33,499 nt of DNA from Methanobacteriota archaeon (lineage in GTDB: Archaea > Halobacteriota > Methanosarcinia > Methanosarcinales > Methanosarcinaceae): assembly GCA_016841265.1 (NCBI GenBank), contig JAENZL010000012.1, positions 17,887 through 51,385 of the forward strand. The letters run 5' to 3'. This document shows, one piece after another, positions 14,741 through 18,961 of this stretch; position 1 is the stretch's first letter; the number at the start of each line of letters is the position of its first letter. Position numbers and translations under genes: made by a program. Under the pieces are notes generated by a model, which had not been told where the DNA came from, made no database searches, and saw only the letters and a list, made by a program, of their open reading frames with translations.

Positions 14741-14998
14741 TCCTTAAACGTATGATACCTTTAAACGTATGATACCTTTAAACGTAGGTACCTTAAATAT
14801 AGGTACCTTAAACGTATGATACTTAAACGTAGGTACTTTAAACGTAGGTACTTTAAACGTAGGTACCTTAAACGTAGGTACCTTAAAAGTAGGTCCTTAA
14901 ACGTAGGTACTTTAAACGTAGGTACCTTAAACGTAGGTACCTTAAACGTAGGTACCTTAAACGTAGATACTTTAAATGTATGATACCTTAAACATGAG
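14741..14998. repeat. 15-bp tandem array, about 18 units
   Basis: About 18 copies of CCTTAAACGTAGGTA with variants (CTTTAAACGTAGGTA, CCTTAAACGTATGATA) lie between the winged-helix gene and the DUF2110-like gene. Reading across units, TACCT-TAAACGT-AGGTA is a 5-bp dyad, so each unit can form a small hairpin and the array presents regularly spaced TTTAAA-type words. The end of the preceding gene (TACCTTAAACAT at 14711-14722) resembles the unit. An 82-codon minus-strand frame across the array is a by-product of the 15-bp period. Confidence 0.9.
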
Positions 14999-16204: not shown

Positions 16205-16951
16205 TCAGAGCACCGTGACCTCAAACATGCAGTGTCCGTGCCCGGTTCCATAGCATTCTATTTCTCGAACCCGAAATTCCCTGCCCAGTTTCTCACAGAG
16301 AACACCTTCGATGAGGCCTTCACTCAGGGCACAAAACGGCTTTCCTATAATGGGCATAGACTCGGCCTTGAAAGGGTCTTCAATAAGGAGGGAAAGAGGT
16401 TCGGTTTTGAGTATGGAGAGCCTTCCGTTTCCCCCGGATTCCAGGAAGTATCCGATTTCTTCCAGAAGCCCTTCGAGGGTTTCTGACTCAAAAGCGGATG
16501 AAAGGTGGACACCGATGTCGCATCCGATCTTTTTTACAATAGGGACATTATCAATCCCGTAGGCTTCAAACCCGAAGCGTAAAGCATGGTAGACGGATTC
16601 CATAAAGGAAAAACGGTCTTTTTTCCCGTTTCTGGCAACCTTTTCCAGCAGACTGTTATAATGTTCATGGACAGGTTTCTGGGAGCAGCCCATGTAATGG
16701 GAAGTAAGGGAATAAATCTTCCGGCGGCGGTCGGCAGGGTCAACCATTTCCTCTACAAGTTCAGTGGTCCTGAGGTTGTTGAGGTGTACGGAAATTGTGG
16801 ACTTTGCCTTTGCCGTGTATTTAACGATTTCATCAAATGACCTGGAATCTTCCCTGAGGAGATTGAGAATTTGCAGCTTTACCGGACTGTCCACCGCAAC
16901 AAGCCCGGATTCCGTGCAAAAAAATTCTGTTTTATTCTCAAGCCTTCCCAT
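16205..16951 (-). CDS. msvR: MsvR-type redox-responsive transcription regulator (HTH + V4R)
   Basis: Regulator of 248 residues. Residues 15-85 form an ArsR-like winged helix-turn-helix (VDSPVKLQILNLLRED, then KSTISVHLNNL). Residues about 115-248 form a V4R domain ending in ECYGTGHGHCMFEV. This pairing is the signature of MsvR, a methanogen family whose binding is altered by oxidation of V4R cysteines. Seven cysteines are present (12, 89, 144, 207, 219, 233, 241), four of them in the last 42 residues, where redox cysteines of the family lie. The gene is divergent from pspA with a 215-bp gap. A TATA box at 16977-16989 is close to the ATG at 16951, and a TTCGCA-N4-TGCGAA dyad sits directly upstream of it, so autoregulation is likely. 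Whether it also controls pspA is inference. Confidence 0.85.
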   Translation of the reverse strand: MGRLENKTEFFCTESGLVAVDSPVKLQILNLLREDSRSFDEIVKYTAKAKSTISVHLNNLRTTELVEEMVDPADRRRKIYSLTSHYMGCSQKPVHEHYNSLLEKVARNGKKDRFSFMESVYHALRFGFEAYGIDNVPIVKKIGCDIGVHLSSAFESETLEGLLEEIGYFLESGGNGRLSILKTEPLSLLIEDPFKAESMPIIGKPFCALSEGLIEGVLCEKLGREFRVREIECYGTGHGHCMFEVTVL

Positions 16952-16976
16952 AATATCTTTATATAAGTTGTTTTTT

Positions 16977-16989
16977 GAATATATAAAAC
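16977..16989 (-). promoter_or_regulatory. TATA box of msvR
   Basis: GTTTTATATATTC on the minus strand. The predicted transcript would start only a few bases before the msvR ATG (nearly leaderless). Two bases separate the element from the MsvR-like dyad. Confidence 0.55.
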
Positions 16990-16990
16990 G

Positions 16991-17006
16991 TTCGCATGGT
17001 TGCGAA
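16991..17006. promoter_or_regulatory. Putative MsvR operator, TTCGCA-N4-TGCGAA
   Basis: TTCGCATGGTTGCGAA is a perfect 6-bp dyad with a 4-bp spacer, of the same layout as the TTCGTA-N4-TACGAA type site I recall for Methanosarcina MsvR. It abuts the msvR TATA box on one side, and on the other it is 13 bp from a plus-strand TATA-like GATATATAAATAT (17019-17031) facing pspA. The position suits repression of msvR and possibly coordinate control of both genes. Confidence 0.65.
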
Positions 17007-17166
17007 TAATCAATATTGATATATAAATATGAAGTTATAAATTGTGAAGCTTCAGGTTCCCTTCCGAAGAAAGCTCCGCCCCCGGATCGGATGAATCCCC
17101 CGGCAAATAAATAAAAATACCAGCCTCTCCAATTAACAGATAGCAGGAAAAAATCGGGGGGAAAAC

Positions 17167-17913
17167 ATGGGGTTAATCAACCGAATGGAAACGGTCTTCA
17201 AGTCAAAGATGAACAAAGTGCTCAACAGAATGGAAGATCCCAGGGAAACACTGGACTATTCCTACGAGAAACAGCTAGAAATGCTTCAGGATGTGAAAAG
17301 GGGTGTTGCCGAGGTGACCACCTCAAAAAAGCGCCTTCAGCTCCAGCGGGCAAAACTGATGCAGAGCGTGGGCAAACTTGACTCCCAGGCAAAAGACGCT
17401 GTAGCGGCTGACAGGGAAGACCTGGCAAGGATGGCCCTTGAACGGAAAGCTGCCCTCATGCAGCAGATAGAGGGCCTTGACACGGAAATTTCCGAGCTTG
17501 AGAAGCAGCAAGAAAAGCTCATTGCCTCCGAAAAGCGTCTCTCCACCAAGGTCGAGATCTTCAGGACCCGGAAAGAGTCCATAAAAGCCGGGTACTCCGC
17601 AGCCGAAGCCCAGGTCCGGATCAATGAGTCCGTGACAGGGATCAGCGAAGAGATGGCAGATGTGGGGCTTGCAATCGAGCGGGCTGAAAACAAGACCGAA
17701 GAAATGAAAGCCCGGGCTGAGGCTATCGACGAGCTCATGGAAGTCGGGACCCTGGAAGACCTTACAGGTCCCCAGGACGATATCGAGCGGGAACTTGCAA
17801 AAATCAGTGCCCAGACAAATATTGAGTCCGAACTCGCCAGACTCAAAGCCGAAGCGGGCAAAGAACCCGAAAAACCCGAAAGTAAAGAAGCAGGCAAGGG
17901 GGCAGAGAAATGA
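17167..17913 (+). CDS. pspA: PspA/IM30 (Vipp1) family membrane-maintenance protein
   Basis: ESCRT-III-related protein that binds membranes from the cytoplasmic side and oligomerises to protect or remodel them under envelope stress. The 248 residues are almost wholly helical. An amphipathic N-terminal helix (GLINRMETVFKSKMNKVLNR) is followed by DPRETLDYSYEKQLEMLQ and long coiled-coil segments to about 190; the charged C-terminal tail (KAEAGKEPEKPESKEAGKG) is extra compared with short PspA proteins. The start is supported by a GGGGGG-type ribosome binding site 6-12 bases before the ATG. Its stop overlaps the start of pspAA by 4 bases (ATGA), so the pair is translationally coupled. It is divergent from msvR, with an MsvR-like dyad between them. 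Two TATA-like sites are possible (17019-17031 and 17105-17117). Confidence 0.93.
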   Translation: MGLINRMETVFKSKMNKVLNRMEDPRETLDYSYEKQLEMLQDVKRGVAEVTTSKKRLQLQRAKLMQSVGKLDSQAKDAVAADREDLARMALERKAALMQQIEGLDTEISELEKQQEKLIASEKRLSTKVEIFRTRKESIKAGYSAAEAQVRINESVTGISEEMADVGLAIERAENKTEEMKARAEAIDELMEVGTLEDLTGPQDDIERELAKISAQTNIESELARLKAEAGKEPEKPESKEAGKGAEK

Positions 17914-18188
17914 TAATCAGGATTATGGGAGAAGGCCAGTTCCGGGTACATGCTGCCCTCTTTGACGAACTGAACGTGATGGACAACCGAATCGTGGACT
18001 TCGTTGCCGAAGGGAAAGCAGGGGAGTTCAAAAACGAACTTGCAAAGCTGGTAGCCGTTATAAGGACAAAAGGAACCGAAATAGCAGCTGAAGAAATTCT
18101 GGAATCGGATATCATCGTGCCCCCTGAAGACCTCAGCCTTGAAGAAGCAAAAGACGTGTTTAAGGGGACCGGGATTTTCGAGGATTGA
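17910..18188 (+). CDS. pspAA: PspAA, small partner of PspA
   Basis: Small soluble protein of 92 residues that matches the PspAA pattern: N-terminal MIIRIMGEGQFRV, then a helix with LFDELNVMDNRIVDFV and a C-terminal PPEDLSLEEAKDVFKGTGIF. PspAA proteins are found next to PspA in archaea and cyanobacteria, and comparative genomics regards them as adaptors in phage-shock-type systems; no enzymatic activity is known. The ATG overlaps the pspA stop codon by 4 bases, strong evidence that the two proteins are made together. An array of 13-14-bp repeats starts 48 bases after the gene. Confidence 0.88.
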   Translation: MIIRIMGEGQFRVHAALFDELNVMDNRIVDFVAEGKAGEFKNELAKLVAVIRTKGTEIAAEEILESDIIVPPEDLSLEEAKDVFKGTGIFED

Positions 18189-18235
18189 GCAACTGCCGCG
18201 TTTGCTTCGGCTTTCAGGGATATGGTTCTCAGAGG

Positions 18236-18297
18236 TGCAACCCTGGAATTGCAACCCTGAATTGCAACCCTGAATTGCAACCCTGGAAGTGCAACCT
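18236..18297. repeat. 13-14-bp tandem repeat after pspAA
   Basis: Four full and one partial copy of TGCAACCCTG(G)AAT. Neighbouring units create TTGCAA palindromes. The remainder of the 18189-18523 spacer has A-rich low-complexity DNA at about 18436-18486 and no gene that I can support. Confidence 0.8.
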
Positions 18298-18523
18298 TTA
18301 AAGGTACGGCTTCCAGAATACATTAGGTCAGATTTACCAAAGGAGCGGTTGCCAATGACACGTGGGTAACTGCCAATGATGTGGAAGCAACTTTTAAAAT
18401 TAAGCTGCTGCTCCTCAGGAACGGAACAAGGAGAATGAAAAATAAAAATAGAGATCGAAAAAGAAATAAAAATAAAAATAAAAATGTGGGAAGAGTAAAT
18501 TAGCAGGCTTCAGGAGCCCACAT

Positions 18524-18961
18524 TCAACGTACAACAATTACCGGAACTTTTGAGTGCCGGGTAACATTCTCTGCCACACTGCCGATCAGGAACCTTTTGA
18601 TCCCTGTCAAACCCTGTGTGCCCATTATTATCAGGTCAATACCGTTTTTCTCTGCATATTCAAGGATCTGTTCGGCCGGGCTGCCTTTCAGCAATACTAG
18701 CTCCACCTTGACTTCAGCTCCTGTTCCGGCTTTTTCAACATATGCAGTCGCAAGTTGCCCTCGATCAGTCAAATATTCTTCAAAAGGTTCTGCCCAGCCC
18801 ATGACCTTCCCTGAAACTTTTGCATGCTCATCGGAAACGACGTACACAGCGCACACTTCAGCACCGCTTACCTTCGCAATATCTATTCCATGAGATACAG
18901 CTCTTCTGGCGTTTTCCGAACCATCAGTTGCAATCAGGATTTTTTTGAAAAGATTCCCCAT
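18524..18961 (-). CDS. Universal stress protein (UspA family)
   Basis: Single-domain Usp of 145 residues. The N-terminal KILIATDGSENARRA has the conserved Asp that contacts ATP, and the C-terminal GTQGLTGIKRFLIGSVAENV contains the G-2x-G-9x-G(S/T) ATP-binding signature, followed by SKVPVIVVR. It probably belongs to the ATP-binding type. These proteins respond to starvation, redox and other stresses by unclear mechanisms. It is monocistronic on the minus strand, with GGGGAG upstream of the ATG at 18961 as ribosome binding site. Its position among msvR, pspA and htpX adds a further stress-related gene to the neighbourhood, but co-regulation is not shown by the sequence. Confidence 0.92.
   Translation of the reverse strand: MGNLFKKILIATDGSENARRAVSHGIDIAKVSGAEVCAVYVVSDEHAKVSGKVMGWAEPFEEYLTDRGQLATAYVEKAGTGAEVKVELVLLKGSPAEQILEYAEKNGIDLIIMGTQGLTGIKRFLIGSVAENVTRHSKVPVIVVR

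Follow-up and report, generated by a model that had tools for sequence, protein, structure and literature searches.

The window analysed here (the whole stretch of DNA, 33,499 nt) carries the divergently oriented genes msvR and pspA, and the 215-bp gap between them contains an inverted repeat with TATA-like elements on both sides (Table 1). Both flanking genes named in the first-pass annotation were confirmed by profile matches (NF053755 for msvR and PF04012 for pspA). The MsvR protein scored 282.8 bits against the full-length NCBIfam profile NF053755 (cut-off 220), and the winged helix (HTH_5, PF01022) as well as the V4R domain (PF02830) were present. Three V4R cysteines, C207, C233 and C241, were retained and aligned to C206, C232 and C240 of the MsvR from an M. 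acetivorans-like genome (G074). The gene on the far side of msvR encodes a DUF2110 protein, as does the corresponding msvR neighbour in M. acetivorans, and the shared synteny suggests that it is equivalent to COG4044 of that species. A 15-bp unit, CCTTAAACGTAGGTA, is repeated in tandem approximately 16 times between the msvR-side genes (14742-14993), and many other short tandem arrays occur in the window.

Table 1. Features of the msvR-pspA region (positions are those of the window).
Feature	Position	Strand	Evidence or remarks
msvR, redox-sensing transcription regulator (ArsR-type winged helix and V4R domain)	16205..16951	-	NF053755, PF02830, PF01022
msvR TATA box	16980..16988	-	TATATAAAA, read on the minus strand as TTTTATATA; present in all aligned loci
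MsvR operator dyad	16991..17006	none	TTCGCATGGTTGCGAA (TTCGCA-TGGT-TGCGAA); conserved core TTCGN8CGAA
P1, TATA-like element on the pspA side	17020..17027	+	TATATAA at 17020-17026, 13 bp from the dyad; candidate promoter
Second conserved A/T element of P1	17035..17041	+	TTATAAA; start-proximal element or alternative TATA
P2 counterpart, degenerate	17099..17138	+	resembles the Methanosarcina pspA leader element, judged by eye; rival promoter candidate
pspA, PspA/IM30 membrane-repair protein	17167..17913	+	PF04012, E 1.6e-24
pspAA, PspA-associated protein	17910..18188	+	PF22743, E 9.1e-31; 4-bp overlap with pspA

The sequence bears out the perfect 6+4+6 dyad that had been claimed at this position, together with its spacing, i.e., 2 bp from the msvR TATA box on the left and 13 bp from the plus-strand TATATAA on the right. 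The dyad is the sole exact TTCGN8CGAA in the window. The 3.65-Mb genome contains 44 exact copies of this motif, giving a chance expectation of about 0.003 for the msvR-pspA gap. The 17-bp flanks of the msvR dyad have GC contents of 18% and 12%, and it is the only one of the 44 copies for which both flanks fall below 20%. The only composite of a TATA box and a dyad found in this genome is that at msvR, and each matching genome of Methanosarcina and of this genus likewise has a single one. The 6-bp arms are particular to this genus, the conserved core being TTCGN8CGAA. Two further TTCGN8CGAA dyads, spaced by 512 bp, were noted at L182 (1001-1016 and 1513-1528; G000:C29:171132 and 171644), outside ORFs of at least 100 aa and with flanks that are not both AT-rich; one of them, TTCGTATTTATACGAA, matches the published TTCGTAN4TACGAA perfectly.

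The msvR loci from 94 Methanosarcinaceae genomes were compared to determine how the dyad is conserved. In 86 of the 94 loci, the msvR ATG is preceded at a distance of 28-40 bp by TTCG, exactly 8 bases and CGAA, whatever the neighbouring gene. The exceptions included six genomes of genus g11, with TTAGN8CGAA, and one Methanosarcina genome, with CTCGN8CGAA. The half-sites were kept in the aligned loci, while most inner bases and also the outer bases varied. In one genome of genus g4 (G005, L084), a single case in which no pspA was found, the right half-site of the operator has been lost and the adjacent ATATAA remains. The reduced MsvR of M. acetivorans binds a TTCGN8CGAA box upstream of msvR (Isom 2013, PMC3729527), and this binding requires both half-sites and the AT-rich 17-bp flanks, replacement of the flanks abolishing it (PMC3729527). 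The locus studied here shows the same sequence features, namely, a TTCGN7-9CGAA inverted repeat ahead of the msvR TATA box, with less than 20% GC in each 17-bp flank. A chance match could be invoked because the motif is short and has 44 exact copies in the genome; however, its position and N8 spacing are fixed in 86 of the 94 loci despite variable inner and outer bases, and the orthologous site is bound in vitro. Given this conservation, chance is refuted in practice, and we assign it a negligible probability. The dyad is almost certainly the orthologue of the M. acetivorans MsvR box and hence the autoregulatory operator of MsvR. The previous assignment of the repeat as an MsvR-type operator is upheld by the match to the published MaMsvR box, the conserved position, the AT-rich context unique in the genome and the redox cysteines.

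The locus closely resembles that of M. acetivorans MsvR (MA1458) with its PmsvR boxes A/B (PMC3729527), sharing the gene itself, the TTCGN8CGAA box upstream of the msvR TATA box, the DUF2110 (COG4044) neighbour, the redox cysteines and the AT-rich flanks. The perfect 6-bp arms, in contrast, distinguish this genus from the M. acetivorans box. The msvR transcript is predicted to start approximately 27 nt downstream of its TATA box and to be nearly leaderless, and the mapped start of M. acetivorans msvR lies 8 nt ahead of the ATG (PMC3729527). The operator itself is an element of an already known kind, and the link to pspA is a new prediction with moderate support.

The divergent arrangement of msvR and pspA-pspAA was observed in 4 of 4 genomes of this genus (g1), in 24 of 26 Methanosarcina genomes with msvR and in one of two g4 genomes, and the MsvR proteins of these three genera form one clade (support 100/100). 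The gene opposite msvR in most other genera is of the TRM5/TYW2 type (two cases confirmed by Pfam and NCBIfam, the rest assigned by eye). We asked whether the dyad accompanies pspA by examining 28 pspA loci of g6, g10 and g11; none had TTCGN7-9CGAA within 400 bp upstream of pspA, and the idea was rejected. In two Methanosarcina genomes, G076 and G104, a rearrangement has split the region, so that msvR kept the dyad and P1 and pspA kept its leader without the dyad. The conservation of the dyad upstream of pspA orthologues, which had been put forward as a check, therefore holds within the msvR-linked clade and fails at the 28 loci of g6, g10 and g11 and in G076 and G104. The simplest reading of these sequences is that pspA came to adjoin a pre-existing operator. 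A second conserved site, consisting of a TATA box and TTCGN8CGAA with the geometry of the msvR promoter, was noticed in four g6 genomes (L235, L238, L239 and L244, locus position 1501). The gene downstream of this site encodes an IscA/ErpA-like Fe-S assembly protein (TIGR00049, 90.2 bits) and may be a second target of MsvR in g6.

In M. acetivorans, MsvR was described as regulating only itself at its locus, with MA1457 and the hypothetical MA1459 as its neighbours (Isom 2013, PMC3729527), at gaps of 181 and 128 bp, respectively (PMC3729527). The gaps flanking msvR in G074 are exactly 181 and 128 bp, the latter to an antisense 122-aa ORF, and the identical gaps and cysteine positions lead us to infer that G074 is M. 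acetivorans. The 122-aa ORF matching MA1459 (L100 4361-4729, G074) runs antisense through an 18-bp tandem repeat of 14 copies within the pspA leader and is very probably spurious, i.e., not a real gene. The pspA gene of G074 lies 651 bp away and is divergent to msvR. Since MA1459 appears to be an antisense tandem-repeat ORF, pspA would be the true divergent gene in M. acetivorans. The published account names MA1459 as the divergent gene and only msvR as controlled (PMC3729527), whereas at the present locus and in the re-read G074 the divergent gene is pspA.

In the pspA-linked clade, a conserved block occupies the right flank of the dyad. It consists of TAAT and, after a stretch of variable sequence, ATATAA (about +14 relative to the dyad) and ATAAA (about +30). 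When counted 10-17 bp after the dyad, ATATAW was present in 31 of 31 loci of this clade, which represent one clade and not independent events, versus 5 of 62 other loci. The spacing of P1 from the dyad is 11-14 bp. The alignment columns surrounding the P1 block are nearly devoid of information, a contrast that speaks for selection on the block. Its layout mirrors that of the msvR promoter (TATA, then TTATnTAAAG near the msvR start site). In all 31 loci, the dyad is accompanied by a TATA-like element whose use and direction as a promoter are putative; the direction is uncertain because the core is nearly palindromic and lacks a conserved purine-rich BRE. A search for a terminator between P1 and pspA, in the form of a T-run, gave a longest run of 2 in this genome and of up to 6 in others. 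The one Rfam match in the scanned region (16900-18600), to the family LPR10, was rejected, as it had an E value of 0.66 and was far below the gathering score.

The best explanation of the data as a whole, which we hold to be somewhat probable, is an autoregulatory operator combined with MsvR repression of P1, leading to redox-induced pspA-pspAA. The divergent placement of pspA-pspAA relative to msvR would have arisen in the ancestor shared by Methanosarcina, g4 and this genus, with P1 on the other side of the dyad. A reduced MsvR dimer would occupy the dyad and its AT-rich flanks, covering the msvR BRE/TATA on one side and the P1 BRE/TATA region on the other, so that both promoters would be repressed. 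As P1 lies within or adjoins the flank that MsvR requires, the bound dimer is expected to cover it. Oxidation of the V4R cysteines would then release MsvR, and the msvR and pspA-pspAA transcripts would increase. The pspA-pspAA leader starting from P1 would be approximately 115 nt long here and up to approximately 550 nt in M. acetivorans. The activity and direction of P1, its occlusion, the read-through to pspA and the redox induction of pspA are steps that we infer. That MsvR directly controls pspA-pspAA in Methanosarcina and the sister genera, using one operator for this gene pair and for its own promoter, has in our estimate an even chance. The proposal that one sensor governs both msvR and the PspA operon therefore stands with regard to autoregulation, and its pspA part is plausible, supported indirectly by the conserved divergent pair and the fixed-spacing P1.

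Shared control by the msvR dyad is plausible from the sequence comparison, and several observations speak against it: the direction of P1 is uncertain, pspA lacks both the dyad and P1 in G076 and G104, the 28 pspA loci of g6, g10 and g11 have no dyad, and the pspA leader contains a second conserved element, P2 (GATAAACTAAAAATATAACTCC; GATAAACTAAAAATATAACTCCAGCC, e.g., L099 and L033). P2 is conserved in Methanosarcina and in G004, where it is located mostly about 150 bp and up to 459 bp before pspA (-145 to -460 in Methanosarcina, and about 150-200 bp at loci such as L099 and L033). It could be the pspA promoter or an RNA element. The dyad might accordingly control msvR only, with pspA transcribed from P2 near 17105 and P1 being either an AT-rich flank kept for MsvR or a distal promoter facing msvR. 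We regard such a restriction to msvR as unlikely, though it has several points in its favour. MaMsvR fails to bind once the AT-rich 17-bp flanks are replaced (PMC3729527), and a part of the P1 conservation could be explained by this need of MsvR binding itself. Moreover, the dyad is also conserved beside other neighbours, P2 is conserved as described above, and in G104 pspA keeps P2 even though P1 and the dyad have been separated from it. However, in other genera with a well-formed dyad no ATATAW is conserved at this place and the right flank is less rich in A/T (mean GC of the 17 bp 27%, versus 14% in the pspA-linked clade), and the requirement for AT-rich flanks alone is therefore insufficient to account for a fixed motif. 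In addition, several genomes carry ATAGAA in place of the TATA-like core of P2, and the element is degenerate in this genus.

MsvR might instead repress its own promoter and activate P1, e.g., by aiding TBP binding from an upstream site, in which case pspA expression would be highest under reducing conditions. The centre of the dyad lies approximately 51 bp upstream of the predicted P1 start, and some archaeal activators use sites at about this distance from the start. On the other hand, repression by MsvR is the only activity reported in the literature that we found, and occlusion is favoured by the overlap of the P1 TATA with the AT-rich flank that MsvR requires for binding. Activation of P1 is therefore less likely than its repression, and we consider this arrangement improbable.

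The layout of the locus resembles one in Methanothermobacter thermautotrophicus, where, in the account of Karr 2010 given in PMC3729527, MsvR boxes lie in the shared divergent promoter of msvR and fpaA. In both cases, an MsvR box is located between msvR and a divergent operon. According to the same account (PMC3729527), the operon in M. thermautotrophicus is the oxidative-stress operon fpaA with at least three boxes, whereas a single dyad and pspA-pspAA are found here. MthMsvR is described there as binding in both redox states (PMC3729527), unlike the M. acetivorans orthologue, which binds only when reduced. The archaeal two-gene cluster PspA-PspAA, surveyed by Ravi et al. 2024 (PMC11237479), is the gene pair found here, and the main text of that survey (PMC11237479) makes no mention of MsvR, V4R or ArsR. 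The literature found agrees with the earlier statement that no link between MsvR and PSP genes has been described. One example in the survey, AAM04874.1, presumably belongs to M. acetivorans, judging by the style of the accession. Our literature search on how msvR and pspA are expressed in Methanosarcina, and on where their transcripts start, returned nothing usable. MaMsvR did not bind the oxidative-stress promoters that Isom et al. tested (PMC3729527), and the literature found establishes no structural-gene target of MsvR in Methanosarcina. Since the msvR promoter is the only site combining a TATA box and the dyad that was found in this genome and in each matching Methanosarcina genome, and pspA faces it, pspA-pspAA becomes the leading candidate target of MsvR. 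The view that MaMsvR regulates only itself was based on MA1459 as the divergent neighbour, and the re-reading with pspA in this position would correct that basis. The candidate can be tested in a genetically tractable methanogen. If true, shared control would provide MsvR with a physiological target in this lineage and the archaeal PSP system with a regulator, and it would connect the sensing of oxidants with membrane repair in strictly anaerobic organisms.
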